Source of the DNA: Bryopsis sp. KO-2023
Lineage: Eukaryota; Chlorophyta; Ulvophyceae; Bryopsidales; Bryopsidaceae
DNA: 64,000 bases
Direction: 5' to 3'
Assembly (NCBI GenBank): GCA_030272585.1
Contig: BSYQ01000003.1
Location: forward strand, 5,332,001 to 5,396,000
The notes below the pieces were generated by a model. It did no database searches and was not told the DNA's origin. It worked only from the letters and a program-made list of their open reading frames with translations. This document shows positions 1 to 45,571 of the stretch, in pieces. The translations under genes were made by a program, and so were the position numbers. The first letter of the stretch is position 1; each line of letters starts with the position of its first letter.

Positions 1-548
1 AATCAATCATAAATTTCCTCCACACATGAGAGAGAGAGAGAGATCATCCATTGTTGAACAGTCCTTGGGTTTTGCCCAACCTGTTGGGGATGGTCTCAAA
101 TTAAGCACAATCAAGAAAATCTGACTCACGGGTGCCGTTTTCAAGGATGTATTTCAGAGGAGTGAAGGCAGGGGGATAGCAGTTGGATGCTTCAAAAATT
201 GCCTTTACTGTAAATTACCAGGCTGACTGTATGAACCTTCCTGAAAAAGTAAACACTGCCACTGTGACAAATGACCAAGCCTTAATGGCATCTCAGTCGA
301 GAACTTCCCAAATCGCGAGGGTGTGTTAGCCAAAATATAAATGCCGCATGTTCTATTATATGTGCTGTGTCGATTGTGTTAATATATTCCTGGAGTCCTT
401 CCCAGATAGTGCTACCAGCCACCCAGCCACCCAGCCACCCCCCAGTTTTCTACTACCCTATCGTGCTTTGAAACTGTGCCACATCACCACCACCTACCCA
501 TCAAAAGCTGGAATTCACAGCAGAACTCGACGAGCAACACTTTTTGAT
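1..548. other. 5' flank, no gene seen
   Basis: No supportable coding sequence. It holds a short GA microsatellite near base 35 and a small ACCCAGCC tandem near base 420. It lies downstream of the BRF1 stop codon, so part of it may be the BRF1 3' UTR on the minus strand. Confidence 0.4.
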
Positions 549-3500
549 CACCCCCCAAAACTCTCCGATTTCGTGGGCTTTTCAGAGTGCTGGTCCTTCT
601 CTGATACACCACGCCCATCCAGAGTGTCAACTGGAGCTTTCACTTTTCCGCCTTTCCTCCCAGAGTGTTGACTCTTCTCTGATACACCACGCCTATCCAG
701 AGTGTCGATCGGAGTGTTCACCTCTCTGCCTCTCCCCTCAGATGGCGGCTCCCTCAATTGCGTCCCTCTCAAGGCCGCTCTCACCACAATCTCTCTTGGC
801 CCCATAATGTAGCCATCAATTTCGGTATCATCAATGTCGCTCAGACCATCCCTCTCAATCTCATCATCTCCACCCACAGATTTCACCGGCTGCCCCTCCT
901 CGATATCGGCCAAAAGTTCATCCAAGGAGGCCCCCCCTGTGTCGACACCACTGCCGTCACGCAAACACCCAGCCAAAGCACGTCCCCCAACACCATCAAT
1001 TTCCTCCTCGACCCTCTGTTGTTTCCTCGGTTTTTTTCTGGGTTTCTGAAGGTCGGCCATTCTCTCCTTTTGAAGGTCGATCATTCTATCCCTCTGTCTC
1101 GTTGATTTGCGCCGAAAAAAGTCTCGGACTTCGCCATAGCCATTGCCTTCATCGACAAGGAAACTTTCTTTTCCAGGATGCCCTGGAACCCCACACTTTT
1201 CCCAATACTTGCCAGCAAATAAATCAAAAAAACTTTTTTTGCCCTTGCCGGGTGAGTCGGTCAAATTCTTTGTGAGGGTCATTGCAGGGGCATCCAACAT
1301 CAGCTTCTGCTGCTGGTTTCTTTCCAAATTTGCTGCTGCTTCCCGGCTCAATTGGCTAAATTTTTTTTTGCCCTTGCCTGGTGAGTCAGTCAAATTCAAC
1401 GAGAGGGTCATTGCAGGGGCATCCGACATCAGCTTCTGCTCCTGGTTTCTTTCCGAATTTGCTGCTACTTCCCGGCTCCATTGGCTTTCTTCTTCTAGCA
1501 GCGCTAGTTCTTCTTCTTCTTGTTCTTGTTCTTTTTCTAGCAGCACTACCTCTTCCTCCTCCTCCTCCTCCTCCTCTTCCAGTTCTTCGCCCCCATCGGA
1601 TTCGCTGCTCGAGCTCAGCCCCTCGATTTTAATTCTGGCAGGTGTCACATACGTAGCCAACTCCTTGGGGAAAGATACATTGTAGTTCTCCGGAGGGCAG
1701 TAACCTCTGTTGATTTTCCTTGTGGTGACATCCCCAATGAGACCAGCTTCTTGCAGCAAAACCACCAAAGGCGTCGGAGCAACTCCTTCCTCGAAGGGGG
1801 CTGGCGGTGCTTCCTCCTCCTCTTCTTCTTCCTGGAAAAAAAAAAACGCATCCAACAAAAAAGGCTTCTTTCCTTCTTGTTCTTTCTCCCAGGCAAGGAA
1901 ATCAACAAAAACAGTGGGAAAATGTTCACTCATATATTATATGGGTTATCTCCTGAGGATATTTCTTCCTCCTCTAACAAAGGTTGAGTGCAGCTCAAGC
2001 ACAGAACAGCTACCGGTTTCAATCAACAAACGCTCTCATCTCTTTTTTTTAGCTGTCAGAATCCGGTGCAAACACGCACCTCGACACATTTCTCTTCGAT
2101 CGCCTGTACTCGTTTCCAAGCGGTCAGAACTTGAGGAAGCCTTCGAGCCATTTTCGACACCGTTATGTCACGACACCCCGGGATGCCTTGTGTGGCTTTC
2201 AACAGTTCTCTTTTAATGAGTTTCTTGTACTCTTTCGTGGGTGTCATGGCGATGTTGTGCTTCTTGCAAAATTCGATGACCATTGGGATAGCCTTCGATT
2301 GAGAAAATTTACTTTCGACCCCCAAAGCCACCACTGCACCTGGGTTGAAGAAGAAACGCATGCAAAAAAACACACACACACACTCCGACATGTAAATAAA
2401 GCTTTTTTGCCGTGCAAGTGGGTGAAGAATCACCCCAAAACATCTCTTCATAATTTCCGAGTTTTTTTTGGGTTTTTTATAAACAGTTGATGGTGGAGGT
2501 CCAGTGCAAGGAGGTGGCGATGCCCCACGAAACATGTTTGGATATATCTGAAAAAAAATCAGGGGTTTCTCGAATCAGTTTCTTCTTAGTTTACCTTTGG
2601 GGTAGTGCGCTAGATACGGACATTGTGATGATACTATGGCTTCTTTCCGAGTCAGCCTATAACACATTTCCGTAAACGGGCTGCACTCGTGTGTAAAAAA
2701 AACAATTCCAATTCAATTTTTTCTGTATAACATGCTATATATATTTTTCTGTTTACATGAACTCAAAGAGATCGTCTACTGCACATACCGACAAAGCACA
2801 TGGGTTTCGCTCTGCCATGCAACTCCTGATGAAAAAGAAATTCTTTCACATCGTGCATCACCGTCATCAACCCCTCTTTTGTGGGCAGTTCATAAAACAC
2901 AGCCCTCTCGCTGACGTCTTTTTCCTCCTCGTTTTTCTCGTCTTTTTTCTCCTTTTTTTTCTCCTTTTTTTTCTTCGACGGGCTGGGCGGAGGTGGAAAC
3001 ATCTTTAGGTCGTCCAGGTGCGAAGCTATTTCGCTGATGAAACGATCCACCAGCAAATTCAAGTTGTGACCAGGAATGGAAATACCCGCAGTCCTCACCA
3101 GGTGTCTGACACAACAGGAAAAATAAATCACACTCACACAATCTATTCTTTTTTTTAATTTGTTTTTGCAAACATGGATCAGCAGATAAGGAAAAAAAAC
3201 CCAAGAGAATATTCAACAGAAAAGAGAAAAAAGTGACTCTATTTTTAAAGTGTCTTTCATATCCAAATTTGATTTTATTCTAACTTTATGCTGAAAAAAA
3301 GTCATTTTTCTCAAAACTTTGGAAAAAAAAGGTCGATTCTTGATTCAATCTCTGGTATCACACATATCTGACGTAGATGCCATTTTTCTTTTCTTTTCTT
3401 TTCTTTTTTGTTTTTTTTTTTTCATCCACCTTGTCTGTGGGTATCTTTCTTTTTTTTCCCTGTTTTGCTCCACACTCACCTGTAATGCCGCATGATCTCG

Positions 3501-4448
3501 TTATAATTCAGCTTGAACGTGCATGCGATTTCATAGGCCGTGATCGGGAGGAATCTTCTTCTGCCAGCAATGTAAATGACAACAGCACAGTAGGCATCCA
3601 TGTTGCGATTTTTTTTGTATTTCCTGGTGTCGTTCATCACCGCAATTGCTTCCTGCGAAATTCGACTGCCGAACGACAGCATGGAGATCATCCTCTTGAG
3701 CGTGTCCAGTACCTTTGCTCTCGCCACATGGTTTCCTTCATCTGTGGAGGAAAAAAAAAACCAGAACTTGAGCGAATAATAATAATAATACTAAGCTTTT
3801 TTTTTTTTTTTTTACCTCCGTATGGTTGTTGCATTCTTCTTCTTGTTTTTGGGGTGTATATTTGAAGTTGAAGTTGGATTGTTGAAACGATCGAATATGT
3901 CGTTGTCCATGTCAGACATTCGTTCACCTTTGGACATTTAACATCGAAGCGTTCATTTTAGAAGAGTTATTGGTTGAGTTTAGCATCATTCCCTGGACAC
4001 TTTATTTTTTGTTTTGTGGAAACTGGATTTAGCATCAAAATTCAAGCGAAATTACAATTAAAAAGATTTCAGAATGCTGCTCTGCATCCAATGTTCCTGA
4101 AGCTAACTGAGCATAAGGAACAAAATGCTCTGCATTTTTTTAGTGCAGGCGAAATGCACTTCAAAATTTTTTTCCTTTCCCAAGAAGAGAAAATAATCGA
4201 ACCAGATCCAACCAAATCTACCAACTGGAAACATGAAAAGAAATTCATGACTGTACGTAAGCAGCTGAAGGCAGAATAGTCGCACCCGAACACGGAATGT
4301 GGCAAAATTCAGCCCCCTCAAGAATCTCGTGCTGTAAGTCGTCCCCCTCTTCGGCGACTACCCCACAAGCTTCGCATACCGCTTCGTTGGTGTCGAAATC
4401 GACCACCACTGAGTCAGACCCACAATTCTTGCATTTTTCGGCGTCCAT
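549..4448 (-). CDS. BRF1: TFIIIB subunit BRF1 (TFIIB-related factor)
   Basis: BRF1 recruits RNA polymerase III to tRNA and 5S genes as part of TFIIIB. The first exon (ATG at 4448) encodes a TFIIB-type zinc ribbon with two CxxC pairs (CKNC, CEAC). Exon 3741-3480 encodes a cyclin-fold repeat and continues in phase into 3105-2789, 2642-2595, 2547-2485 and 2339-2080. The last exon, 1831-549, follows a strong T-rich acceptor and carries long acidic runs. Near its C-terminus it has the BRF signature SDIDDTEIDGYI, which separates BRF1 from TFIIB. This exon also holds a tandem duplication of about 45 residues (two copies of a DAPAMTL...LTDSPGKGKK unit). The joint between the zinc ribbon and the cyclin exon (about 4330 to 3800) is unresolved, and a small exon near 3930-3800 is likely. 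Family assignment is firm; the exact protein is not. Confidence 0.82.
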
Positions 4449-4630
4449 CCTGCTCCCCGCCTGTGTGGTCTGCAGCGCCCGTCCAGGATCCAGTTTTCTT
4501 TCCGTTGGGGACGAAGGCCAAGACGACGAATCATGTTGGGAATAAGTTGGGAGGAAATGGGCAGGGTGGGGATTAAATCACATCAACCAGGTGACTCATT
4601 GAACGCCTGTCCATAGTGACTACACTCCTG
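4449..4630. promoter_or_regulatory. Probable BRF1 upstream region
   Basis: About 180 bases between the BRF1 start codon and the hAT-type element at 4639. No TATA box or named motif stands out. It is called a promoter region from position only. Confidence 0.25.
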
Positions 4631-4638
4631 CCCAGCAG

Positions 4639-5119
4639 TAGGGATGTCCCTGAGAATTTTTTACTCAAAAATCCGCATTTGGATGGACTTTCACAAAGTC
4701 CACATTTGGGTAACCGTCCACATTATTTTTCTTTGGGTTCCTAGCAGTTTCTATAGCGATGATAAGTTAGTGGTAAGGATTTGAACAATTTTTGGATTGG
4801 GGGGTCTTTGCGAGTGATTGAAGAAACCATTGGAGACAACTGTAATGTTGCAGTACGAACAGGTGTTATGACGCTCTTGATGCGAGGTTGATAGGCTGGA
4901 TATTTTCTGAACAGTGCCTGGTTGGTGAGATACATTTTTTTTGTGAGGTTGGCGGTTCATGATCTTATTGTGATGTATTTCAGAATCCAGAAAATAATCA
5001 CAGACAATTCACAGTCTGGCGAATAGTTATAAATTATTTCTCACATTTGGGTTAAAAAAAACTCCCCATCGAAAGTTCACATTTGGGTGAATCGAAATTC
5101 ACACACAGGGATACCCCTA
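4639..5119. mobile_element. Non-autonomous hAT-type element (MITE)
   Basis: A 481-bp element. The left end reads TAGGGATGTCCC and the right end is its imperfect inverted copy, GGGATACCCCTA. It is flanked by near-identical 8-bp duplications, CCCAGCAG at 4631-4638 and CCCAGCGG at 5120-5127. Eight-base target duplications and TAGGG-type ends are typical of hAT transposons. Inside are several subterminal copies of a CACATTTGGGT motif in both directions. A short minus-strand stretch near 4850 shows a CxxC...H arrangement that could be a decayed BED finger, but no transposase survives. Confidence 0.72.
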
Positions 5120-5127
5120 CCCAGCGG

Positions 5128-5601
5128 CCAAGTGTGAAGTGAACGAACAAACATGATCACATTTAAAAAAAAAAAATGGTGGTAGGTAGAGAGCATGGCA
5201 TGGGAACAGCTTTCTCTTTCTTTCCACAGACCACTCTTGTTTTTGTTTTTTTTTCGATTCTTTTTCTTTTGACCGAGGATAGGCAGAGGTGGTTTCTCTT
5301 GAACATTGGATTGATCGATTATGGAAATAAATATGGATCTGTGTAACATTCATTTATTACACAAAATAGAGAAATGTTCATTTATCATACGAAGAAGTCA
5401 GGAGAATGTGGAATGTGAAGAGGAGCAAACACATAAAAATACCCCTTGTCCTAATTAATTCCTATTTTGCATGAATATTTCTTCATCATGTTTCTTCAAC
5501 ACAAAGTTGTCCAACTACACCATGCATGCAGTGAATTTGACAAAAAGATAAAATACATCCCTGCAAGATGGCTTCCATAATATTCTCATACATCAGGACT
5601 G
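5128..5601. other. Intergenic, no gene seen
   Basis: AT-rich sequence with short homopolymers and no supportable gene. Confidence 0.4.
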
Positions 5602-5877
5602 TCAAATATGAGCACTGGCTGGGGTTGACTGGCCAAACACATTCAACATAAGTTCTGCATCAGGATACAGAATTTCCATCACAACCGGTTTCTTTTTGCC
5701 GCCACGTCGCACTGCTGCGCATGCTTCGAGTTCCTGGTAAAAACTGCTTTCCCTTGCTCCTTCACACATACCAACATCGAGGCTCTCGCCTAAAATCATC
5801 AATCGCAAATACCTCACCAACTCGCCCAAAGGAAAAGCTGCAATCACTGCCAAAGAATACCCCACCGCCGCCGCCAC
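5602..5877 (-). CDS. Possible terminal exon of an unknown gene
   Basis: An open stretch ending at a stop at 5602. Its composition looks protein-like (a GELVRYLRLMILGESLDVG segment followed by a charged KKKP stretch). No family is recognised. No upstream exon could be joined, and it abuts the plus-strand coiled-coil gene head to head. It could be a real last exon, part of a bidirectional locus, or chance. Confidence 0.2.
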   Translation of the reverse strand: MAAAVGYSLAVIAAFPLGELVRYLRLMILGESLDVGMCEGARESSFYQELEACAAVRRGGKKKPVVMEILYPDAELMLNVFGQSTPASAHI

Positions 5878-5883
5878 TTGGAA

Positions 5884-6593
5884 ATGTCGGAACTATTGAC
5901 GGGAATTCTGGCTCAAATTCAAGACATGGATGAGTCCCATAGTCGATTGCATGAGGAGGTGAAAGGGGAGAAGCAGCGCAGAGAGGTGGCCGGGGCAAGT
6001 GAAGCGGCTGACCGTGTCCCGGCTGAGCCTCCTGGAAATGCTGGACGAGAGGAGAAAAGATATCCACGAAGATGTGGGTTCTCGGCCTGGAACCCTTCCG
6101 CACTCATCTGTCGATGTTTTCGTGAGCTGCGATAGCTGATGGCGTTCGTTTGTTGGGATTGATAGATTCGCCTGGAGGAAAACTACCGTTCCACGGCCGA
6201 GGAGCTGGATGCGGCCCATGCGCAGCTGAGGGAAGCTCGACGGGTACGGCGCGAAAGAGATGGATAAATGGATGGGCGAGCATGCAGAAGCATTTCACAA
6301 TTGTCTTTCTCTGGTCGAAACAAGGAGCAAGCATCTCCCCGAGTCGGCCGTCAGGATTCGGAATACGACCTGGCAAATTCGAAGCGGGAGCTCAGCCAAC
6401 TTCAGTGAGTTGTTGGGACGGTTTTTCAGGGTCGGTGCACAGTCATCGGCAGACAAAAACTAAGAAACGGATGATTGCCTGTTGCAGTTGATGGAGCGGG
6501 AGGCCTGCCACTCAGCAGAAATTGCTCGCATGAAAGATCAGCGTATGATGGGCTGCCATCGCATGGATCCTTCTGTTCTCCAATCCAGTAGAT
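5884..6593 (+). pseudogene. Coiled-coil protein gene, frame broken twice
   Basis: The start codon is at 5884 and the stop (TAG) at 6591-6593. The pieces encode an uninterrupted run of heptad-like, charged helix: an exon from 5884, an exon from about 6167 to the GTACGG donor near 6243, one from about 6350 to 6408, and a last one from about 6487. The reading does not close. In exon 1 the coiled coil switches frame by one base near 5990. At the third donor, CTTCA|GTGAGT, one missing G would restore both the splice site and the downstream frame. Two independent one-base losses suggest either a decaying gene or assembly indels. No family is recognised. A related fragment lies at 23113-23177. Confidence 0.45.
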
Positions 6594-6722
6594 AGAAATC
6601 TCATATCTATATGTTCGTGACAACATATAGACAATCAGTGACAATTCTCAGGTGTGAATGAGTGTGTTATTTATCTCTGCGCAACGTAAATGATGTTTGT
6701 TTGTTTGAAACCGTTTCTGTCA

Positions 6723-8261
6723 TAATAATCATAATCATAATTACAACCCACAGCAAAAGAGAGCCATCACCCTCTATGATGCTGGAACAAAGACAAAAAG
6801 GAAAGAAAAGAAAGAGAAAAAAAAAAAAAAAAAACAAAAACAAAACAAAAACCTTAGGATTGTAAACCTGCTGAACGTATTGAAGCCATTTTGCTGATAA
6901 TTAAAGCTAATTTGCCCGATGGCACCCTACTAAAAAGATCCTTGGGATTAGCCCATCGAAAAACATCTGAATGCAAAGAACGAAAGGAAGAATAAAAAGG
7001 ACATTCAAAAAGAAAATGCCGTTCATCTTCCACCGCGGACCGACACAACCGACAAATCCTGTTTTCCCTTGGTACACCATTATATCGTCCCACTTCCACT
7101 TCCAAGAAATGAATACCACAACGAAAACGAGTAAAGAAAACCCGAAGAGAAGTTGGTTTTAAAGTTGTCAAATACCGTTCAAATCTGAGGGAAAACTTAA
7201 TATGCCGATACCAAGATATAACTCGAGATGCAGATGAACCGAAAACATGTTCAGCATGCATAGCTTTATAACGACGCTGAAATTCCGAAATGTCCACCAA
7301 AGTCGTAGAAGAAAATATCTTCTCCGGCCAAAACCGTCTGAAAAAACCCAAAATACGCCCAAACCAAGAAGATCGAGATGCGTGATATTGATCAAAACCC
7401 CAACAAAACAATCTTCCATGCAATCGATCAACTGATAACCCAACCAACTTGTTCCAATATCGGCACAATTGCGACCAAAGTGCTAATTCTAATGGATAAC
7501 ACCCTAATTCCCCGTACAGAACCTCCTTTGGCGTATATCGAGGCAAACGGAGGATACTTCTCATAAACTGGAGATGAATTGCTTCCAACAAACGCCACTG
7601 AGAAACTGTTAGGAATGGACCCCAAATAGGAAACCCATATCCTATACTGCCCAAAACATACACCTTAAAAAGATTGTATGCTACTTTTGGATCCTCAATT
7701 TTCAGAGCAAAAAGACGCGACAAAACAAACCCCATTGCTTTCCGACACTGTGCTAAAACATAATCAATATGCGACAAAAAAGGATGATGAGAACTTGATG
7801 ATAACCGAATTCCTAAATATGTATGGTCCTCTGAAATTGGTATAGAATGCTCATGAAAATGAAAAGAAGAAGACATAAGCTGCTGAAAAAAAACCATCAG
7901 AATCGTTTTGGAAAAATTTAAACCAATTCCCGAATATTGTTCCCATTCAATCAAAACCTGCAACACTTCCTTTACCCCAGACCAACAATGTCCTGGTATC
8001 CCCGTATCATCTGCAAACATCATACATGGAATGGTCTCCCCACCCAAGGAAGGAGCAGCAATCCTCGAGTTCAATAAATCTTGGAGTGGCTCCTGATACA
8101 GACTATATAAAGAAGGACTTGCTGGACAACCTTGTAACACCCCGGCCCGAAGAGGTATCGGTACCGAAGTCCCTACTGATGCCTTTATAACGAAAGAAGA
8201 ATGTTCGTATAAATACTGCCACATCTCCACATAGGCTTTTGAAAAACGAAAACAATAAAGA
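6723..8261 (-). mobile_element. 5'-truncated LINE (non-LTR retrotransposon)
   Basis: A 1,539-bp minus-strand insertion flanked by 9-bp direct repeats TTTCTGTCA (6714-6722 and 8262-8270). It encodes the C-terminal part of a LINE reverse transcriptase followed by a zinc-knuckle region. The 3' UTR carries GGTGATGG...CTCTTTTGCTG and ends in a (TAATCA)n-type tail at 6723-6745 instead of poly(A). The endonuclease and the first RT blocks are missing, as expected from incomplete reverse transcription. The continuous ORF suggests a fairly young copy. Confidence 0.85.
6854..8261 (-). CDS. LINE reverse transcriptase fragment
   Basis: About 468 codons without a stop. Visible RT landmarks are the GVLQGCPASPSLY block and the catalytic FADD box (MMFADDTGI), followed by the thumb region. 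The C-terminus has a zf-RVT-like CxxC...H...C cluster (CRLC...HFLFEC). The open frame runs on to 8305, but bases beyond 8261 are flanking DNA outside the target duplication. The N-terminal endonuclease and early RT motifs are absent, so it is not autonomous. Confidence 0.85.
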
Positions 8262-8305
8262 TTTCTGTCAAGATCCACGTGAGTCATGGAAAATATTTTG
8301 ATCAT

Positions 8306-8566
8306 AGCAGATCACATAAAACTCAATAATGGATCATAGCAGATGACGTAAAACTCAATAATGGATCCAAATCAAATATTTCTTTACATGCCCAAATGAT
8401 GCACCAGATGATACTTGGTGCAGGCATCTCAAAAACATGTCAATCCAAAAAGATCTTTGTCACGCAAAGGTTTCCCCAAAAAAACTGATCATGAAACTGA
8501 GGTGATCAGCGAAAGTATACTCCTGATAAATTAATAAAGCCAATCATGAAACTGAGGTGATCGGCG
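8306..8566. repeat. Two small local duplications
   Basis: A unit of about 36 bases containing TAAAACTCAATAATGGATC occurs twice in tandem (about 8306-8365). A second unit, ATCATGAAACTGAGGTGATC, occurs at about 8489 and 8546. Both copies differ by few bases. No coding signal. Confidence 0.6.
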
Positions 8567-8690
8567 ACAAAATCTAAAGTTAATGGCCAAAAAAAATTCA
8601 CGATAAACATGTTGTCGGACTCGGATGCGCATGCGTCCACTGTCAGCAAAGGACAGATTGTCTCCAGCATGAGATGAGATGCGAGGGACC

Positions 8691-9633
8691 TCAATGGCAA
8701 ACGCAGACCTTCTTGCAAACTTTGCATGACTTGCATTCCTTCCAGCAATTTCGTCCTGCAAGAACATTGCAAACATGTCTGGCACCGGTCGGACTATGTT
8801 TCTCGTAAACCTACAGAATCCAGAAGAAAAAAAACTCACCGCCGCCGCCGCCTCCACCACCGCCACCTCCACCACCGCCGCCTCCTCCTCCACCACCGCC
8901 GCCGCCTCCCCCACCACCGCCTCCGCCTCCACCTCCACCACCGCCACCGCCGCCGCCTCCTCCACCACCGCCACCACCACCTCCTCCGCCGCTCTTTCTG
9001 CTCTTCTTCCTGCGATTATTCCTGCCGAGAAGACGCCTCAAGCCGTAGCTGCATTTCTTCTCGTACGCACCACAGCAATCGCCGCCGCGGCACTTGCCAC
9101 CTCTTAATTTGCACTCAACTTCTTCACAAACTCTCTTGTAACATCTCTGAACACACGCACGAACGATCTTCAGCAGGACAGTTTTGACATACGCAGCAGA
9201 AAAAAGCGCGAGCAGGTGCAACGGTCTACGCTCACCGGGCAGCTGCTCGTGCAGCTATTACATTTCCTGCCTGAACCACACACAGAAGTATAAGCTCGGG
9301 CCTCGCAAGCAGATTCATGCAAATCGCCACCAGAGTCAATACATACTGTCATTGAACGGCCGAGAGCTTAAGTCGACTCCTTCGAACTCACCGAGTATGG
9401 ACCTTCCTGCACCGATCGACGGAACGCGGGTTCCAAAGCCAGGCGCCGGCGAGGTCTCTGCAACACACAGACCTCCATTTCAAAATGATGTGGTAGCTGG
9501 TAGGCTCCACTCATATTTGGAGGCCTACGATTCGATAGTCAGAGCGGAGGCACATACCAGCAGAGTCCACCGAGTGGCACACGGATAAGGCGCAAAAAAT
9601 GGCCAGCAGCAACATCATCGAGTTCGACCCCAT
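8691..9633 (-). CDS. Secreted cysteine-rich protein with long poly-glycine tract
   Basis: Five exons join without a phase error: 9633-9558, 9457-9392, 9345-9236, 9167-8840 and 8755-8691 (645 nt, 214 aa). Exon 1 encodes a signal peptide (MGSNSMMLLLAIFCALSVC, cleavage probably near HSVDSA). The mature part has about 20 cysteines in three groups: six in exon 3, eight in exon 4 (including a CC pair) and six in exon 5. Exon 4 ends with a basic stretch, RNNRRKKSRKS, then about 51 consecutive glycines encoded by GGN repeats at 8840-8990. Donors are GTATGT or GTGAG; acceptors end in CAG or AAG. The function is unknown. The architecture suggests an extracellular disulfide-rich structural or defence protein. 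The start codon lies 96 bases downstream of the LTR of the neighbouring retroelement, in the same orientation. Confidence 0.72.
8840..8990 (-). repeat. GGN trinucleotide repeat coding poly-glycine
   Basis: An imperfect GCC/ACC/TCC triplet array on the plus strand reads as uninterrupted glycine on the minus strand. It lies inside exon 4 of the cysteine-rich gene and stops one base before the GTGAGT donor. Mixed synonymous triplets suggest selection for glycine or age, not pure recent slippage. Confidence 0.8.
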
Positions 9634-9729
9634 CGTTAATAGCGACTGACACAGTGTGCTCACGATTAATAGAGGAGCCACCACCCTATTTGAACTCCAA
9701 ACTACGTGGTTGCAGTGCAATCGGTCTAA

Positions 9730-9865
9730 TGTTTTGCAGTAGCAATTACAAATAACAGAAGTCGTCTATACAGTTTCCCAAGCGAATTAAGAACTAATTC
9801 GACAAAGTGATCAATCCAAGAATCCTCTAATCCACATCGTACTCGCAAAAGATTAACCGACGACA
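9730..9865 (-). repeat. 3' LTR of the Ty3-type element
   Basis: 136 bp, TG...CA ended, apparently identical to 13173-13308. It lies directly upstream of the cysteine-rich gene. Read on the minus strand it is the downstream LTR. An 11-bp word, TGCAATCGGTC, occurs just outside it (about 9715) and just inside it (about 9869). Confidence 0.85.
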
Positions 9866-9913
9866 TCTGCAATCGGTCCACCTCGTTTCCACTTAAGCGT
9901 ATACTCCGAAAAC

Positions 9914-11122
9914 TCATTCAATCACCTTGATCATATCTTCCAAACCCACTCTCCGTCTATCTCTACCAGAAAAAACAGTAGCTAATCTCCATTCTGCAGA
10001 AATTTCTTCGATAATCCAAAACATTGATGATACTTCAGGATCCAAACATCTTCTTCGAAATGATCTCAAATATACCAAGTCTCCAACAGTAAAATCCAAC
10101 TCTCTTGATCTTGAATTTTTCTTTTCATAAGCTCTTTTTCTTCTAGCTTGTACCAAATCTCTCTGCCTTCTGGCTTCTCTCCACAAATCAAGTAAGTTTA
10201 AATTGCTGCTCTGTATTTCGAAATTATACCCATTGAAAATCACCTTCTGATTAAAACATAACTCCACAGGAGAAAGGCCTGTAGTAGAGTGGGGAGCACA
10301 ATTATGGCTGCACACTATTTGCTCCAGCAAACTAGGCCACTGATTCACTCCAATGCTACATTCCATGATCATACTCCTCAATCTAGTTTTAATATCTCTG
10401 ATGGACGATTCCACGCTCCCGTTGCTCTGTGGGTGAAAAGGTCTTCCCCTTCTGTGTTGAATTCCTTTCTCTACCAAAAAGATAGAGAATGTCCCACTAA
10501 ATTCTCCTCCATTATCCGACTTGATAAATTCAGGCGTGGGAAAATTCGCCAAAATTTCTCTTTCCAACCATTCCTTCAGAGAATCTGATGTTTTATCTTT
10601 GAGTTTTGTCACTACAACAAACTTAGAAAAGAGATCTAAAGCAACCACCACATACTTTACTCCACACAAACTTTTTGGTAATTGAGCAAGATCGATTCCC
10701 CATCCTTGAAATGGTCTATCCACTGTGTTATCTTGGACAATACTTTTGGGAGCAACCCATCTAATTCGATTGCACCTACATATGCCACAGTCCTTAAGGG
10801 AACTTCTCACAGTCGAAACTAAAGAAGAGAAATAATATCGCTGTTGGATGAATCGCAAGCTTTTTTCTTTCATATGTCCTAACCCCTTATGAATATTTTC
10901 TATCAATGAAACTCTTTCACTTGGGTGAGGAACTATTCTAGAAATCACCCCTTTATCCTTTTTCCACAGAACTCCATTCACAAACTGATACGTTTTCGAC
11001 TTTGCCTTCACTCGCGTTTTTTCGCTATGACTACCCGAAACTTCACCAGTTTGAAGAAACTCTATAGTGGGTGCATCCATCCACACGTCGTAAACCATTG
11101 TCTTTCTTTCCCTTGTTTCCAA
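9914..11122 (-). CDS. Ty3-type integrase, free-standing
   Basis: About 402 aa. It opens with an HHCC zinc-binding domain (H-x4-H ... CGICRC), then the catalytic core with the DDE triad: D in WGIDLAQ, D in KSDNGGEF and E in NGSVESSI. A C-terminal strand-rich domain follows (GDLVYLR...). In Ty3 elements integrase is the last part of Pol, fused behind RT/RNase H; here it begins as its own frame just after the gag-like ORF. It has no stops, so the catalytic protein could be made if expressed. It could be a deletion product or a real non-autonomous lineage. Confidence 0.85.
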   Translation of the reverse strand: METRERKTMVYDVWMDAPTIEFLQTGEVSGSHSEKTRVKAKSKTYQFVNGVLWKKDKGVISRIVPHPSERVSLIENIHKGLGHMKEKSLRFIQQRYYFSSLVSTVRSSLKDCGICRCNRIRWVAPKSIVQDNTVDRPFQGWGIDLAQLPKSLCGVKYVVVALDLFSKFVVVTKLKDKTSDSLKEWLEREILANFPTPEFIKSDNGGEFSGTFSIFLVEKGIQHRRGRPFHPQSNGSVESSIRDIKTRLRSMIMECSIGVNQWPSLLEQIVCSHNCAPHSTTGLSPVELCFNQKVIFNGYNFEIQSSNLNLLDLWREARRQRDLVQARRKRAYEKKNSRSRELDFTVGDLVYLRSFRRRCLDPEVSSMFWIIEEISAEWRLATVFSGRDRRRVGLEDMIKVIE

Positions 11123-11221
11123 AACCTCAATTAGACTTTTTTATACTTCCAATCATTTATTTTTTTTTGATACGAATAAATACCATTCAAAATAATCGCC
11201 GTACTCGACTCCATTATCATC

Positions 11222-12952
11222 TTAATCATCACCATCGTAAAAATCGTAATCACCATTATCACAATCATCGAAATCGCCATCATCGTAATCATAATCACCA
11301 CTCTGATCATGATCATTTCCAGAGCTGTGATATAAAATGGAATCACAATTTTGATCAGAATAGTTCGCAGAAGAACTATTTCCGGGATACACGTCACCTT
11401 CCACATTTTCTGACCCCATAGCATGTCCTTCCTCTTGCTCGTTTTCTATCTCACTTGAGGCAACTGAATTTGATTCATCAAAATCATCAACCAGAAATGG
11501 AAACTGGTCCTGAATGTTTTTCGGAATATCACTATTCCCAACGTCCCCGTCTGATGTATACTGGTCTGATTCATCACCCGAATTCTCTTTTGTTTTCTGA
11601 TCAACCTCTTCCTCTCTGCTTGATTTTTCTGATTCATGTTCTTCTACCAAAAATGGAAATCTGTTCAAGATTCCTTTTGGTACTGAAAATAATTCCTCAC
11701 TCCTGTCACTGAAATCATACCCATCTTCTCTTTCATCATCTGAATTTTCCCCTTGAGCATCAGAATTTCCAGAAGAAATATCTTCTACCAAAAATGGAAA
11801 TTTGTTCTGGATTTCTATAGGAATCTCCTTCCCTGATGTACCTTGATCTGAAAATTTCTCTCTGTCATTCTCCGATGCAATCAAAAAAGGAAATCTGACT
11901 CGAACGCTTTCGGGTATATTTTCACCTGATTCATCAGTTGAATCCTTTTCTGATGTTTCTATGGAAGAAGAAGAAGTAAAAGAAAAATCCTTATTCCCGG
12001 TCCATTGATCAACCTCTTCAAAATCTTCAGAACTCTGAGGTTTCCTTTCTTCGTCAGAAAATTCTTCTTCCCATAATGATTCATTAACCCGTGAAAACTT
12101 GTTTCCAATATTTTCAGAAGAATCCCCAACAAAATCTGCAACACATGGTAGTGTTCCAGGAGCATTTGATGGTTCAGAAATTTGTGATCCTGGGACAGAG
12201 TTCCCTTTGCTCTGTCCATGACATCCACGAACATTACGTTTCTGAAAACCAGAAAAGCTTGTACCACCAAAAAGCCCTTCCTGATTGCCAACATGCTTTC
12301 CCACACCTGATTGAAAAGCACTAAAATTCTGTCCCCTGAGTTTGGAATCTCCTGGCAATATTTTCCTTGCACTATTCTGACTGGTCCCCCAACGGCTGAA
12401 ATTGAAAAACCCCTGACTTTTTCCTCTCTGATGCATATTTGGTACATATTTTTGATGGATTTTCCCAGAATGAGGTTGATCATTTTTTGAAACTTCAAAA
12501 GGTCTGTAATTAAAAAAACCCATCCTTTTCTTTGATGCATCACACCATTCACCACTGAGTTGTGCTACACCAGGATTCAACGGAACTGGTCCAGATTTTC
12601 GACTATACATCGGCTCTTTTGTCGAATCGAATCCTTGTTTGGGCACTGCAGGCCTACCAAACTGAAATGAAGCCGCAGGCAAACGAGGAAGACCTTGTTT
12701 TTTCTTTGTAAAACCCTGACAGTTTTTTGCCTCATGTCCTTTTCGTCGACAAGAATAACACAAACGAGATCTCTGCCGACTCGTGCCCTTTTGAAACCCT
12801 TTGGGAATAACTTTTTGACCGGGCTGTGATACTATATGTCGTATAGAACCTACAGCTCTTTCGAGCCGTACCAATTGCTCCAGAAGCGACGCTTCAATGT
12901 TTTGAGACGCTTCAATCCTTCTGACTCCACAAACAGCATCTTGCATCTTCAC
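11222..12952 (-). CDS. Gag-like protein with CCHC knuckle and four FPFLV repeats
   Basis: About 576 aa. A zinc knuckle, CYSCRRKGHEAKNC (C-x2-C-x4-H-x4-C), lies at residues 65-78. The usual capsid region before it is nearly absent. After a basic middle, the acidic second half has four spaced copies of a motif of the form IP-x-x-I-x-x-x-FPFLV-x-(E/D)(D/E), about 55-60 residues apart. It ends in a D/Y/G-rich tail. The start is the first ATG in the open frame; an upstream non-ATG start or frameshift cannot be excluded. Confidence 0.72.
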   Translation of the reverse strand: MKMQDAVCGVRRIEASQNIEASLLEQLVRLERAVGSIRHIVSQPGQKVIPKGFQKGTSRQRSRLCYSCRRKGHEAKNCQGFTKKKQGLPRLPAASFQFGRPAVPKQGFDSTKEPMYSRKSGPVPLNPGVAQLSGEWCDASKKRMGFFNYRPFEVSKNDQPHSGKIHQKYVPNMHQRGKSQGFFNFSRWGTSQNSARKILPGDSKLRGQNFSAFQSGVGKHVGNQEGLFGGTSFSGFQKRNVRGCHGQSKGNSVPGSQISEPSNAPGTLPCVADFVGDSSENIGNKFSRVNESLWEEEFSDEERKPQSSEDFEEVDQWTGNKDFSFTSSSSIETSEKDSTDESGENIPESVRVRFPFLIASENDREKFSDQGTSGKEIPIEIQNKFPFLVEDISSGNSDAQGENSDDEREDGYDFSDRSEELFSVPKGILNRFPFLVEEHESEKSSREEEVDQKTKENSGDESDQYTSDGDVGNSDIPKNIQDQFPFLVDDFDESNSVASSEIENEQEEGHAMGSENVEGDVYPGNSSSANYSDQNCDSILYHSSGNDHDQSGDYDYDDGDFDDCDNGDYDFYDGDD

Positions 12953-13141
12953 AAATCAATATTTCCACAACGTACTCCTCGCGCAAAAACCCACGCGCGA
13001 TTTGTTTGACCACACAGGCTCGATCGCGCAAAACTATCTCGCGACCTTTAAACTGCACAGTGCTACAGCGCAGTTCTAGCTCCACGCAGGAGAAACACAC
13101 AGTACACCAGACGTTTGGAAAACGCCGCCACACAGGCACAC

Positions 13142-13172
13142 CCTCAATCGAGCGCTGGGCTCCGAAACCAAA
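13142..13172 (-). promoter_or_regulatory. Primer-binding site of the LTR element
   Basis: On the minus strand the upstream LTR ends ...CAAAACA, followed by TT and then TGGTTTCGGAGCC. That is complementary to a tRNA 3' end finishing in CCA, and resembles the common plant PBS TGGTATCAGAGC for initiator tRNA-Met with two changes. Confidence 0.65.
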
Positions 13173-13308
13173 TGTTTTGCAGTAGCAATTACAAATAACA
13201 GAAGTCGTCTATACAGTTTCCCAAGCGAATTAAGAACTAATTCGACAAAGTGATCAATCCAAGAATCCTCTAATCCACATCGTACTCGCAAAAGATTAAC
13301 CGACGACA
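13173..13308 (-). repeat. 5' LTR of the Ty3-type element
   Basis: 136 bp with TG...CA ends, apparently identical to the copy at 9730-9865. Being upstream on the minus strand it should hold the element's promoter. No clear TATA box was seen. Confidence 0.85.
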
Positions 13309-13794
13309 GCAGCACCATCACCCCCTCTCGCTCCCATCATGCGAAGTGATGGTACTTGCGTAGTAGTTCCGAGAACGCCAATCCTGACGTCGGAATGTTT
13401 GCACGCTTCCAACGTCGCTTCCATCGTGGTTCCATCTTCCGCTTCCATGGAAGATGGAACCACATTTGGCCGAGCTGCTCCAAATGTGACGAGTTGGGCT
13501 TGGATTTTATTTGTTTTGCAGTAGAGACTTTTGGGGGGTTTTCGTCTGACAGTCAAACTTTGGTTCGTTCTTTATCGCGTATGGTTGCCACTCTTCAAAA
13601 CCTTCCTACGTCGATAGTTGTGGAAAGGGCCTGGCAACAGCTTTCTCTTTCCTTGCACCGTTCGATAGCTTCTGCATTGCTTGAACGGTCGTCGATTTTT
13701 AGTGATTCGTTTTCTTATGAGAGGGGTTGATTTTGTTTTTTCCTTTTGAATGACAATCAGTGTTTGTAGATACGGATCGGTGTAATAGGCTTCC

Positions 13795-14045
13795 ATGGAA
13801 ATGAGTGGCACCGATCGCTTCCGCGGAAGCGATCGTGGAAGCGTGCGATTGTAACGCCCACAGCTCGCTTCCAAGACTGCTTCCATGGAAGCGGTCGCTA
13901 CCACACTCACTTCCACGGAAGCGGAAGATGGAACCACGATGGAAGCGAGAATGGAAGCGATCGTTTCCAGTGGAAGCGATGGATTCCAGTTTCGCTTCCA
14001 CTGGAAGCGATCGCTTCCAGTTTCGCTTCGATTGGAAGCGAGCCG
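13795..14045. repeat. GGAAGCG palindromic array, copy 1
   Basis: Degenerate repeats of CGCTTCCA..TGGAAGCG-type palindromes, 12-28 bases each, alternate in both orientations for about 250 bp. Long open frames across it on both strands follow from the repeat and are not taken as genes. The same unit recurs at 22370-22625. Confidence 0.75.
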
Positions 14046-22040: not shown

Positions 22041-22369
22041 GTGACATCGACCACCCACTACACCACGCCACCCACGTGGCTAGTGGAGGCGGCACACTCA
22101 GGCAAGGAGGGCATAACAAGAACCCTCACAACATCTCCAGCGCATTTTTCGAGATTGTTGGAGGATTCGTTTTTTTTTCCGTTTTTTTCTTCCTCCCACA
22201 AATCCAAATGCCGTTCCCACAACCTCAGAAATTTTTCATCTATTTCTTTATTTCCCGATAACCGAAATGATGAAAGAGGTGGTAATTCCAATTTTTTTTT
22301 GGGAATTCTTTTTTTTTGGTTTTTTTTGTTTTGAATCCCCAAGTTGATTGGATTCTGGCTGGGAACGTT

Positions 22370-22625
22370 TGTGGAAACGCTTGCTTCCAGTGGAAGCGTG
22401 GTTGGAAGCGCGTTGTGGAAATCGTTGATTCCAGTGGAAGCGTGGCTGGCGGCGAATTGTAACTGGGAGCGTTTGTGGAAACGCTTGCTTCCAGTGGAAG
22501 CGTGGTTGGAAGCGCTGCTGGAGGCGAGGTCGCTTCCATGGAAGCGCTGCTGGAGGCGAGGCCGCTTCCATGGAAGCGCTGCTGGAGGCGAGGCCGCTTC
22601 CATGGAAGCGCTGCTGGAAGCGAAG
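22370..22625. repeat. GGAAGCG palindromic array, copy 2
   Basis: Same family as 13795-14045. The right half settles into a regular tandem with unit CGCTTCCATGGAAGCGCTG plus CTGGAGGCGAGGC, period about 33 bp. Long open frames on both strands are a by-product of the repeat. Confidence 0.75.
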
Positions 22626-22715
22626 CCTCCAAACATTCCGACGGACTGTGCTTTCATTGGATGTACATGCATGTGCACATCTTTTGTCTTGATTTTGTCT
22701 TGGACCAGAGTGGCT

Positions 22716-25061: not shown

Positions 25062-28000
25062 CTACGATTCCTTTGCTTTCCCATCTGATCGGGCCAGATT
25101 GCCGGTTGGTGGTTGAAGAGCAAAATTCAAACTGCCGGTGGGTGACAATTCTGCGCTTTTCGTATCTTCTTGCGACATCCCAGGGGGATTGAGAGCAAAG
25201 TTGAGGGTGTCCAAAATCTGGCTTTGAGGAGCTTCTTCTGCTGCTTCAACGATGGTCTGAAGCTGGTGTTCCTCTGTGGGAGGCTGAAGCGCAAAATTGA
25301 AGTCCCCTGTGGATAGCAGAATGTCCCGCCCTGGGGGAACTTCTTTCGAGGATGTCTGCCCCGAAGAAGACCTGTTCGAATCGAAGATCCCTGTGCCATG
25401 AGAATCATCCATCTTTCGCAAGATGGTGGCGGGTTGAGATGAGCCTCCTTGAGGATGCGGAGGTTGCAGTAGAAAATTCATGGTGGTGGTAGCGAACATG
25501 TCGTTGTCCGATCGGATTCTCCTTATCGGCGTTCTCACAGAATCTATTTCTGGGATGTCGATTGACTCCATCGACTCCATCCACCCCAGCATAGCAGAAC
25601 GATCCTTCCAGGTGTCGTGTGAAAACGAGCGGCGAGGAAAATCTCTGAACCTTGGGGTGCCAGATGGGTTCGTGGATTGGAATGATGAGTCGAAACGAGT
25701 ATTCCTGCTTGACCCAGGGCTCCCTCCCGTTCGATTCAAAGCCCAGTTGACGAAATAAGTGAAGGGGGAGGTTGGCGTGCGCATGGCATCTGGGGTTGAA
25801 ATATTGAGAGGAACCAATGCGGAAGGTGCACGGGAAGGGTGGCGCAAGTTGAACTCATTGATAGTGGTAAGATCGTTGGCGGTAAAGTGACCTGGGAGCG
25901 ACAGAGATCGTGTTGTCGCCGTATCTTCAGATTTTTGCTTTCTCTTCTTTCTCTGTGGAACAAACACACATCAGCCTCAACATCTTTTTCTTCTGCGCAG
26001 TGTTTGAAATGTATGCGAACGAGAAAACTTACCGTTTGAGGAATCTGGTACATTCTTGGCATTTTGGAAGGTGTCAGAAATGTCCTCTTGTACACCACGC
26101 CAAACAACAGGAGCATCAGCACCAAGGCAACCAAGCACACATAGGCGATGAAAGGAAGGTCCGAAATTCCCGGTCTCCCTGTCCCTTCCCTCTTGAACTC
26201 TGGCTCATCCGCCGGCGGCTTCGGAGACGTCAGAATCGTATTTTTCGACCTTGTGGGCTCTGATATCCAATTCGAAAATGAATTCCGTAGGGTGGCAATA
26301 GGAGCGGGTGGTGAAGGAATCGATGGCGGGGGCTCAATAGGCGAGGGAGGGAAGTTGGGGAAGGGGACACCAGGTGGTGGCAATGGGGGCGATGGCGGGG
26401 GTGGTAGAGGTGGGTATTCAGGACGTGGTGGACTGGGAGGGTTAGGCGGCGGGAAGGGGGGACTCGGGGGTGGATTAGGAGGCGAGGGAAAGTTCGGAAA
26501 TGCGGGTTCCTCTGGGGGTGGTGATTTGGGAGGGGGTGGATAAGGAGGCGGTGCAGTGAAGGGCAGAACAGGGACCCTGCTGGGAGAGATGTCAACGTCT
26601 AGGAATGGGAATGGCTCGATATAGAAAGTGCTGATTTGCTCAGGTACAGAGAACGTGACGATGATGTCCTGACCATCGCTACTGCTGGCCGTGTTGCGGG
26701 AGAAAGCTGGCCGCACCAGATAAATGGTGCTGAACTCGCTTACGAACATGGCGCCGCCTTGCCAACCCTAGAAGATGACCGCTGCAAACTTAGAAACATA
26801 TTGATTGGGTTTTTCTCAGCTTATCAGATATCAATCAATCAATCAATTACAGCAAAAAGAGGCCATCACCCCCCATAATACCAGAGTAATACAAGGTAAG
26901 AACAACAAAAAAAACCCAACCAAAAGAAAGCTCCCTGGACAAAGAAAATCCCACTGTTCCAAAGAAAAAAATAATTAAGCTTATCAGATATGCATGCGTC
27001 GAACACGTACCTGGTTATCTTGAAAGACGACATCTGTTAGAAAAACATCACTGGCGGCCACACCAATCGCTCCCCCCGATCCCAAGGCCGAGTTCCCAAC
27101 AAACATCACGTGGTTAAATCTGCAGTAGGTACAGTCAAAACACAATTCAAGGTGGGTGTGGAAACTCTTAAAAAATGTCCTTCGGTATGTTCAATGTGAG
27201 AAACTTCAAGGTCTTTTCTGCAGAGCATCTCACCTTACCACAGCCAACGTAAAGGCTGCAATGGCACCCCCGTTTCCTGCCGAGTTTCCTTCAAAGTGTA
27301 CGTTGGTGAATTGAGCTTGAGCCTCTCCAGACACGACCATCACGCCTCCCCAGCTCAAAGTCTCTCCATTTATCACCTTGAAGTTTTCGAATCGCAGCTT
27401 GGCGTTGGGTCCAGATATTTGCATCAGAGGTCCAAACCCCTTCAAGTCTAGCAGGCATTTGTTCCCTGACAAATCATGTCCATCCACTCCGAAAGGGCAG
27501 GAGCCCACGAACGTGACCTCAACGTTTCGAAAGCTTCCAAGGATGCTGCTTTCATCGTGATTTCCTGGCAGCACATTCGAGAAATTGCCGTTGTGGAAAC
27601 TAAGAGGGGCAATCAATCCAATTCAGTGTGGAGGATTTAAACCGACATCAAAGTGGAAGACACTATTCGGATGGGGGGCAAAAACATTTGCTGGATACAC
27701 TAGTACAGATTCAGAGCGCATCCACAGGTGTTTCTTGCGTCGACAATTGATAGCCACACCGCAGGGGTGTTTACATGTAGAGTGGGAATTAAGGCGTCTT
27801 GAAGGAAACACTTGACCGATGTCATAATAGACGATTCATTGGTTTGGAGTCCAGACTCTGGACGCAGGTAGAAGTATGTGATCTGGTCCGTATTTCGAAT
27901 TAGGTAAGCGTTTTCGCAAGCTTGGTTCTCCAGCACCATAATAAATACATCCTCTAGAACTAGAACATATTCAGTGGGTTTCGAATTGAAATTTTCGGTA

Positions 28001-31000
28001 CCTGTGAAGGCGATATGTGATGTGATGAGAAAAATGGACCCTGCATTCTGAATTTCGTCCAGTAATTGGCTTTCTGATCTTATCCTCACAGAGCTTGGTG
28101 GTGGTGGAGGAGGATTGGGACTCGGTGGTGGAGGGCTGGGAGGTTGTTTTGGTGATTTGGGAGGAGATGGAGGGCTGGGAGGGAGAGGAGGGGGCGGAGG
28201 GGATGGCGGTGGGAATGGCGGAGCAGGCGGCGGCGCGGTCCAATTTTTCCCGATGGAAGGTCCGATTTGAATGGATGTGGGAAAAGGCTCAACGAATGTG
28301 TTGACCACGGTGGTGAATATGTCGGCGCCAGAGGTAGCGCTGTTTTCAACGAACGGGGTGTTGAATAAAAAGCACTCTGCTGAAGTTCCCAAGTGTAGAC
28401 CTCCGCCACTGCGTGCCTGAAGTCAGAAGAAGCGTTGGCGCCGAGCATGTGAATCTTGCTGGGAGTTTCTCTCAAAAACAAGTCTGATTTTGCTTTTTTT
28501 TTCCTTTGATTTTGTTGTTCTGAACCCCAGGGGCAAATCGCATTGTTTTTTAAGCATGCACGGGGGTTATTCCCGGTGGAACCTTGCTCCTATCCACTGG
28601 ACAGTGATTTGTTGAACAAATGAACATAATAATAATACACTGAGATATAGATCATGTGAAGAGAGCAGCCTGGGACCATTTTTATGAAAATTGAATGCAC
28701 CTGATTTTCTGTGAAAAGGGATTCCCGGATCCAAATCGACCCATCAGCAAAAGTTGCACCACCTGATAAACGAACATTCAAAAGTAAATTTCCTCACACA
28801 AATTGCCCGATGTTTTTTTCTTTCAACCAGAAAAACTGACAAACACTTTTTCAAAAAATATCACAACTGCCATATCGAATCAAGCGAAATTCTTACGGAG
28901 AGCTGACAGCTTGATGAAAAAACATTTTCTGAGTTTGTTAAATTTGTCGGATGCTTATCTGTGTGTCTTTTTTTGTTCTCTTCTGTGGGTGAAATGTTCA
29001 GTGAAAAGTGAATTATTATCAAAATTAGTAAGAATGAATTTTATGTAATATCTGGAATCTTACCCCCTTCAAGTGCTGTGTTGCTTTTGAATACACATCC
29101 GTCAATGCTCAAATCAATGCGACCCGTGGCGGCAAATCCTCCCCCAAACTCAGCATGATTCTCCAAGAAAACGCAATTCACAGCTGTCTGGATAAAGGCT
29201 TTCAGTTAGGAAATCCACATAATGATGAAATGAACGCCACCACAAAGTCTGAAAAGCCCATCTGGTCAGACACTGATTCCGTTTCTTGGAAAATAATAAA
29301 GCAATTAAAAAAAAAAGTGGGAGGATACATACTCATCCTACAATCCACTGTGTTGCGCTTTGTTCAGCTATTAAAGTGAAAATTTGGACACGGAAAGCAG
29401 TCCTCACCTGTTATTTGAATTCCCTCCCCAAGAAGCAGAACCCCACCGCCACCACCTGAATCGTATAAATCAAAGGAAATTGATGCCATCTCTTTCACAG
29501 AGTCAAACACCACCTCATGGCTCCAGCACACTTTCACGTGAACCTAATATGTATTACTTACATGTATTTGCAGGTATATCGATGCATGCAGAAATGTGTC
29601 CTGATGAAATTTAATCTATCTTGAGAAAAAAGCTAGCTCCAATTTTGTTTGGTATCATAAACTACTTCTCGCGCTGGAATGTGGCAAACAAAAATAAAAT
29701 ATAAATTCGTAAAAGTAAAAAATTCATTCATTCTTATTACTTTTTTCTGAGCAGCATACCTCCTTCGACCGAAGCTCCTTGAAACACGATATTCTCTAAA
29801 CGTATCTGTGAGTAGGATCCAACTGCTACCAGCAGGCCACCCAAAGATTTCGCATCCAACACACAGCGCTCCCCATATAGATGTGTCATGTACCCATTGC
29901 ATTCCCCCTGGAAATTCAAGAAAAAAAACCCAAGTATTCTCATTGACACCTTACTTTCGCTAGCTTTCGAACATAAAAACAAGTCTGGTAAAAATTCATG
30001 GGGGAGCTATTTACCCTGTTACTAATCTGTACAAAATATTGTTTTATTGTTATGTTCTTTCTGCAACTTTTTTTCTCACCACCTATTTTCAAAAATTTTG
30101 GACTGTTGCTATGAATTATATCTATTCCCTTCTTTTTTTCTTTATCTTTTTACTTTACTTTTCTTGGTTGAGCACAATTTTTTCGAAGTTTCGATAAAAA
30201 ATGTTTTTTTTACAGGATCATTTACCGTGATCGTCAATGAGTCCGTCGACCTATTTGCAAAATTCACCACCGGAAGCACATACTCCCGATCCTGCCCCAG
30301 ACTCGAATTATAATCTGTTCCATTGATGGTTCCATTCCAGGTTGACTCAAAAACATCTGCATTTTCACAAAAATCGATTCAAAACAGTGTCATTCTTTGA
30401 ATCATCAAAGAATCATCGCATCGTCCCTTCTGCATTGTCTTAACCTATTTGAGTGTTGCTTAACTTTTGCTGCAGTTTATTTCATTAATTTTTAGTTTTA
30501 GTTTTGTGGGGGGAAGGAGTGAAGTGCAAATGATGATGTTTTGTTTCGGAAATAGACAGGCTCACCTCACGTACCACTGAAAGCGATATGACTGGTGACA
30601 TGAATACAGCAGTTATCCTCTTGGAGTGCTGTTCTTAATTCGGATGCAGATTCCACCTCCACCTCTGCCAATCCTGATACATTCACATGTGATGCAGGTC
30701 AAAGATTTCAGTTGCATGGCATGTGAGTTTTTTAGACAGAAACACGAAAGAGCACCACTTACGACCAACAAGTGAAAATCACCAATGCATGGCCCACAGA
30801 AAATGGTATGTTAAAATGGATGGAGATCCCTAACGATCCTGGGCGAAAAATTCTGATGTTTTGTTTAGTGTAGGTCGTATCCATGCATGCAATCATGTGT
30901 GTGTGTGTAAGAAAAATATACAGCGTTTGGTGGCGGCGACTGTGACGGTCGACATACCTGAGACGTGATATCTAACCAGCGAAAGGAGCAGCGTGGCGGC

Positions 31001-38691: not shown

Positions 38692-39148
38692 CGTTCGACC
38701 TCCCTGCGTCAACGGAACCCAACAAGGCGAGTGTGTTGTGAGCGTTGCGAACAGAGTTAGATATTTCAGCCGCTGTGCATAGATGGTGAAGGGAAGCTGG
38801 CGAATGTCTGACGCGCAGTCGCGGGGGTGGAGCGTACGACTGATCCTGGGCGCTCAGGCGACTCTGTTGCCAGAATTGAATGGGAAAAAAAGTCACCATT
38901 TACGCTTCAGACAGACCACTGCTGGCTCCACCCAGGACACGCGCACCGTCAAAACTATATCTGGTCGACCTTTGTTTTTGGGGACCGTTGCTTGAGACCA
39001 CCACACGACTTCTTCGTTTTTTCAAGCAGTTTGTCCCGTTCTCTTTTCGTGTTATTTTTACGGAGGCTTCCTTGAAGGGCAACATTAAAAAAAAGCTCGG
39101 AAAAAAAGAAAAAGTTGGAAGGGTATTCCCGGAGCTAGCTCAGCCACG

Positions 39149-45200: not shown

Positions 45201-45571
45201 ACCAACTACAATTAATCCACATCTTTCTTCCAATAAGACGAAATCACCTCGTGGATGGCCTTCATTGGGCAGGTTTGCCTATTGTAAATCAAACATTCAT
45301 TCATTCAAGACACCTGTAATTTGGGTTCCTGCTTGCCGAGTTTTTTTGTCTCAGTTTTCTTTTCTGGTGACAAGTTGGGCCATCGTTTTTGTTTCCTCAG
45401 GTGAATCTTGCCACCCAGCCGAAACAAGCCAATTTTTCTTTCGTTTTTTTCTTTTTTTTTCTCATTTTTCTTTCCAGTACCACGCTTCGTTTCGACCTCC
45501 CACGAGCTTCTTGTCAACATCATTTCGTTAGTACAAGTGCTAGGGTGACGAATTTTAGAACGAGTTTTACG
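42243..45571. other. Long gene-free, homopolymer-rich region
   Basis: No supportable gene in 3.3 kb. The first 400 bases after the importin stop are strongly purine-rich on the plus strand and probably 3' UTR. The rest is dense in A, T and G runs, for example a T11G11-type junction near 43040 and an A24 run near 44430, with a (TA)n at 44108. Open frames here are low-complexity. Confidence 0.5.

Follow-up and report, generated by a model that had tools for sequence, protein, structure and literature searches.

A family of secreted-looking polyglycine proproteins with a putative subtilase processing site in Bryopsis sp. KO-2023

The window analyzed here, a stretch of 64,000 nucleotides of Bryopsis sp. 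KO-2023 DNA, contains on its minus strand (9633-8691) a gene for a secreted-looking protein with five exons and GT-AG boundaries at every intron. The encoded proprotein of 182 residues consists of a predicted signal peptide, a short propeptide, a part with 10 cysteines, the sequence R-R-L-L-G, a basic stretch, 51 consecutive glycines and a tail with six cysteines. Going beyond the first-pass annotation of this DNA, we found that at least 10 copies of the gene carry the glycine run, this one included, and that many loci of the genome, this gene among them, place an R-x-L-L-type motif ahead of polyglycine. Comparison of the sequences establishes the gene structure, its coding constraint and the purity of the run, shows that the cysteines and RRLLG do not vary, and reveals further secreted-looking polyglycine genes of this genome that have a similar motif. 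The reading that we prefer, and to which we give about even confidence, is a secreted proprotein that would be cut by a site-1-protease (S1P)-like subtilase to yield a cationic polyglycine module for the wall or a wound gel.

Gene structure and conservation among paralogs

The exon model was corrected using six intact paralogs from the same 91-Mb, 28-contig genome. Exon 1 (9558-9633, 76 nt) encodes the predicted signal peptide and ends in a phase-1 donor; its ATG, frame and GTATG donor are conserved among the paralogs, and the hydrophobic start is present in all seven copies, in agreement with the signal peptide proposed before. Exon 2 (9392-9457, 66 nt), found as the same exon in 6/6 intact paralogs, encodes the short propeptide and carries RSIL-G at its end. 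The remaining exons were delimited by paralog comparison: exon 3 (9236-9270, 35 nt) encodes three cysteines, exon 4 (8840-9146, 307 nt) encodes seven cysteines, RRLLG, the basic stretch and the glycine run, and exon 5 (8691-8755, 65 nt) encodes the six-cysteine tail and the stop codon. The same five exons, with lengths of 76, 66, 35-41, 313-367 and 65 nt, are observed without an internal stop in the six other copies, which bears out the minus-strand five-exon layout of the first-pass annotation.

As to the splice joints of that annotation, 9558/9457, 8840/8755 and the donors at 9392 and 9236 were retained, and the acceptors at 9345 and 9167 were moved. An exon 4 start at 9167 was ruled out: the acceptor AG is missing there in 6/6 intact paralogs, and a TTCAG acceptor is present at 9146 in all six. 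The 75-nt extension of exon 3 to 9345 is disfavoured, as it meets a stop in three of the six intact paralogs (open frame of 27-39 nt). A start at 9270 is strongly preferred from this comparison, short of proof because the frame towards 9345 stays open for 81-120 nt in the other three. Moving both acceptors removes four cysteines, and the protein therefore has 16 cysteines after the signal region (3+7+6) instead of the 20 counted previously. The last six follow the glycine run in frame across a GT-AG intron, as had been claimed.

Searching this genome at the DNA level detected copies on contigs C16, C6 and C3; each such search scored 40 candidates, so that counts are lower bounds. In an alignment of ten sequences (the window gene and nine copies), the exons keep their sequence and frame, and the introns diverge. 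The seven intact copies agree in all 16 mature cysteines and in RRLLGR, and also in R, S, L and G of the RS[IM]L-G sequence that ends exon 2. Conservation of the cysteine spacing in relatives had been named beforehand as a point on which the gene could fail; checked here on paralogs, it held. The dN/dS ratios were computed without the glycine run for the 21 pairs among the seven intact copies. Values of 0.28-0.32 were obtained for the window copy against the four c16_999-type copies, 0.28-0.31 for c16_687 or c6_5940 against the same four, and 0.38-0.39 for the window copy against c16_687 or c6_5940. The range over all pairs is 0.21-0.83, the maximum belonging to a recent pair that differs by 6 non-synonymous and 2 synonymous changes. 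Judged from these sequences, the gene is real and under coding constraint; the six copies of the same layout, the invariant residues and the between-group ratios of 0.28-0.32 uphold the earlier view of a real protein rather than a chance reading frame. A one-frame match spanning two exons at C3:6314141 was rejected as a processed copy, since the alignment shows that it reads through the intron. In another copy (L031, G000:C3:5844771-5849931), exons 1-2 lie about 4.1 kb from exons 3-5, perhaps split by an insertion.

The family has a common upstream region, which breaks off at -82 in the window copy. According to paralog comparison, its proximal part is retained at 9634-9715 (minus strand). An LTR retroelement on the same strand occupies 9728-13308, with identical 138-nt ends (9728-9865 and 13171-13308), an integrase frame with a Pfam match (9914-11140) and a second frame (11222-12955) that matched no Pfam family and contains, by eye, a zinc-knuckle-like CYSCRRKGHEAKNC. 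The distal part of the upstream region follows at 13309-13388 (minus strand), where 80 nt are 97.5% identical to those of two C3 copies. Because the LTR ends are identical and the missing upstream block reappears beyond the element, the insertion looks recent and appears to have split the promoter of the window copy, moving the distal block by about 3.6 kb. Owing to this insertion the window copy, whose coding part is intact, may not be expressed normally and is perhaps silent.

Several other features of the window were observed. Just downstream of the gene lies a reverse-transcriptase frame (6854-8311, minus strand) with an RVT_1 match, LINE-like by eye. Proline-rich frames of the PPSPPPP type, wall-protein-like by eye, are located at 25736-26767 and 27700-28422 (both minus strand). 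Two similar frames on opposite strands (38260-38853, minus; 45371-46000, plus) have the stretch FHAKQVCRSWRDA in common and are F-box-like by eye. An RRP5-like protein of rRNA biogenesis, with matches to S1 and HAT repeats, is encoded at 59365-61986 (plus strand), and tandem repeats of TGGAAGCG-type units are found at 13952-14041 and 22359-22627.

The glycine run and the putative processing site

Read from the sequence, the polyglycine run of the window copy occupies 8840-8990 (minus strand), with 50 codons in exon 4 and the 51st split with exon 5; the 51 consecutive glycines reported earlier inside the protein are thus confirmed. Across the seven intact copies the run varies from 51 to 71 residues, and every one of its 425 codons is GGN, with C (169), T (137), A (118) and G (1) as third bases; GGG is accordingly nearly missing. 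Among the three damaged copies, a non-glycine codon lies within the run of c3_5849 and c3_6313, and none within that of c16_667. Since the run is pure, its third bases are mixed and two of three damaged copies are interrupted, we read the codon pattern as selection acting on glycine itself. To our knowledge, glycine homopolymers of such length (51-71 here, and up to 143 in sister loci) are unusual in secreted proteins.

The run is preceded by the basic stretch GRNNRRKKSRKS (8991-9026, minus strand), already noted in the first-pass annotation and basic in all seven copies. Immediately before it stands RRLL (9027-9038, minus strand), a likely S1P-type processing site, invariant in 7/7 copies; RSIL at the end of exon 2 (9393-9404, minus strand) is a possible first site of the R-x-hydrophobic-L kind. 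S1P prefers R-X-(L/V/I)-X, according to an excerpt of PMC7162652, and sequences of this kind, RRLL and RS[IM]L, are present in all seven copies of this secreted-looking protein. According to an excerpt of PMC13082318, S1P/SBT6.1 cuts the plant precursor RALF23 at INRRIL/ATRRY, and SBT3.5 cuts PROSCOOP12 at TGRRLM/GSGASG. In sequence, the motif before the polyglycine resembles this S1P/SBT6.1 cleavage type; because SBT3.5 cuts similar sites in plants (same excerpt), S1P is not the sole candidate protease. One S1P-like locus was found in the genome, on contig C6, where a match to the S1P-specific MBTPS1_3rd (2805258-2805680) stands beside Peptidase_S8 matches (2806019-2807155). Peptidase_S8 gave 23 exon-level matches in the genome, and MBTPS1_3rd adjoins two of them, those on C6.

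Polyglycine loci elsewhere in the genome

In order to describe the wider class, we considered two sets of loci. Of 435 first-look GGN-array candidates, 40 were scored. Set 1 comprises 20 other GGN-array loci found with the window query. All 20 arrays encode uninterrupted glycine in an open frame, the longest run being 44-143 residues, and basic residues lie near the run in most. R-x-[LIV]-[LMI] occurs within 80 residues upstream in 19/20 loci (2000 shuffles: mean 3.0, maximum 10), and the strict form R-x-L-L in 15/20 (2000 shuffles: mean 1.0, maximum 6). Two additional array queries supplied the 20 short stretches of set 2. In 14 of them the run is pure over 9 codons or more, and 11 of these have R-x-[LIV]-[LMI]; the six without such a run (L066, L068, L069, L070, L080 and L085) were left out of the counts, and several of them resemble, by eye, the antisense of proline-rich coding sequence.

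Taking both sets and the window gene together, the motif lies upstream of the polyglycine in 31 of 35 loci and is absent from L059, L072, L073 and L082, among which are three of the eight groups found only in set 2. Clustering of the loci by 410 nt of upstream DNA gave 16 groups, which may be distantly related and are then not fully independent. With one representative for each group, the motif is found in 13/16 (5000 shuffles: mean 2.1, maximum 8). Since this short motif first drew notice in set 1, a fairer test is given by the groups present solely in set 2, with the motif in 5/8. An AG resembling a splice acceptor, at exactly 2 or 5 nt upstream of the arginine codon, was counted in 17/30 motif loci of the two sets and 6/13 groups, as raw counts. 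Signal-peptide-like starts were detected in 9/34 loci by a strict rule with a phase-1 donor, and in 25/34 by a rule (hydrophobicity and small residues) that was relaxed after the strict outcome was known; the antisense gave 0/34 under each.

In many sister loci the polyglycine is kept and no cysteine-rich part lies near the run. A sister cysteine-rich family of the form CC...C...G-M-R-R-L-L-G-R, located on C14 and other contigs (L051, L054, L060 and L064), has at least 13 matches, including the query's own locus; its RRLLGR is accompanied by a basic and then an acidic linker, polyglycine and an acidic tail rich in Gly and Asp. L074 carries CC...C...G-L-R-G-L-L-A. By eye, this locus and the sister family resemble relatives of the window family. 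As a tentative proposal, to which we give about one chance in three, a modular exon, often with its acceptor just before R-x-L-L and encoding as many as 143 glycines after a cationic stretch, may have been joined to many secreted N-terminal parts, and an S1P-like subtilase would release from them a repertoire of cationic polyglycines as an undescribed wall or wound-sealing material.

Relation to known systems and possible function

The suggestion that the layout falls outside described families was supported by the searches. No Pfam or NCBIfam family was matched by the seven members at E values up to 10. PDB gave no match to the single-sequence query, and to the profile query one chance-level hit, PEX13 at E 0.71, whose aligned part takes in the glycine run. 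For the exon-4 part (52 aa), no relatives were found in the non-eukaryote phages collection, and neither the 594 pattern stretches in genome_contigs nor the 47 in viral_contigs (both non-eukaryote) were confirmed. Secreted polyglycine proteins of such a kind were the subject of no paper found in an open-licence library.

Plant class II glycine-rich proteins, as described in an excerpt of PMC5852109, have a signal peptide, [GG(X)3GG]n repeats and a cysteine-rich C-terminal part, and are secreted to the wall. The present protein has a comparable arrangement, with its signal peptide predicted, but its run is an uninterrupted homopolymer (425/425 codons), and it has an additional cysteine-rich part before the run and the RRLLG site; its six-cysteine tail did not yield the class II C-terminal cysteine motif, with no Pfam match in seven members. 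Like the precursors of RALF23, PROSCOOP12 and CLEL6, processed by S1P/SBT6.1 and SBT3.5 (excerpts of PMC7162652 and PMC13082318), it is secreted-looking with an R-x-hydrophobic-L/M site; unlike them, it matches no family, and its site is followed by a module of cationic polyglycine. Snakin/GASA and other small cysteine-rich plant peptides are small, secreted, basic and cysteine-rich, as this secreted-looking protein seems to be, but the protein described here has 16 cysteines in another spacing, against 12 in snakin (excerpt of PMC7711543). No GASA domain was recognized by Pfam in the seven members. Pherophorin-type green-algal wall proteins have two folded ends and a rod-like (hydroxy)proline homopolymer between them. 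Folded ends parted by a homopolymer rod are thus common to both, but the rod is glycine here, and with no Pfam match there is no recognizable pherophorin domain.

In the preferred reading, the protein on its way through the secretory pathway would be cut after R-x-(hydrophobic)-(L/M/I) by an S1P-like subtilase, yielding the propeptide, a 10-cysteine peptide and a basic-polyglycine-6-cysteine peptide. The cysteine numbers on either side of RRLL (10 and 6) are even, and therefore each part could form its own set of disulfides. The freed basic residues might bind sulfated polysaccharides of the wall; sulfated galactans occur in Bryopsidales walls (excerpt of PMC7550628). The glycine chains could serve as flexible or polyglycine-II-like spacers, and the product would be a component of the wall or of a wound gel. 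This function, with basic parts on polyanions and a polyglycine spacer, is our best guess from composition and organism.

In a rival reading, the protein would give rise to disulfide-rich peptides with antimicrobial or signalling activity: the 10-cysteine and the basic 6-cysteine parts would be active, and the polyglycine would be a linker. The protein is small, basic and rich in cysteines, which are invariant, and RALF- and SCOOP-type plant signals share this kind of site (excerpt of PMC13082318). However, no known peptide family was matched in Pfam or NCBIfam, and many sister loci have polyglycine without a nearby cysteine-rich part, which points to the glycine module as what these loci have in common as a product; we consider this reading doubtful, at roughly one chance in four. 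Of the two guesses in the first-pass annotation, a structural glycine-rich secreted protein is better than a defence peptide precursor. It is somewhat less probable still that the protein stays uncut, as a spacer whose two cysteine-rich ends are cross-linked by disulfides in the wall, with a polyglycine rod between them and RRLLG merely structural. The invariant cysteine-rich parts that flank the run, and a run free in length (51-71) with constant purity, would agree with this, but the R-x-L-L-type motif recurs where the upstream DNA is otherwise dissimilar.

A non-functional GGN microsatellite or transposon stretch, open by chance, could be suspected from the retroelements on both sides of the gene and from the frequency of GGN arrays in the genome (the 435 candidates above). 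Seven intact copies under purifying selection, with invariant cysteines and diverged introns, argue against it, as does the non-glycine codon in the run of two of the three damaged copies (c16_667 has none), and we regard it as very improbable. A transposon gene was ruled out, the LTR element being a separate insertion.

If the preferred reading of a subtilase-cut protein entering the wall or wound gel of this giant single-celled alga is true, the family would represent a glycine counterpart of the green-algal hydroxyproline rods. It would also offer ready-made substrates on which algal S1P could be tested, and a polyglycine material that is genetically encoded.
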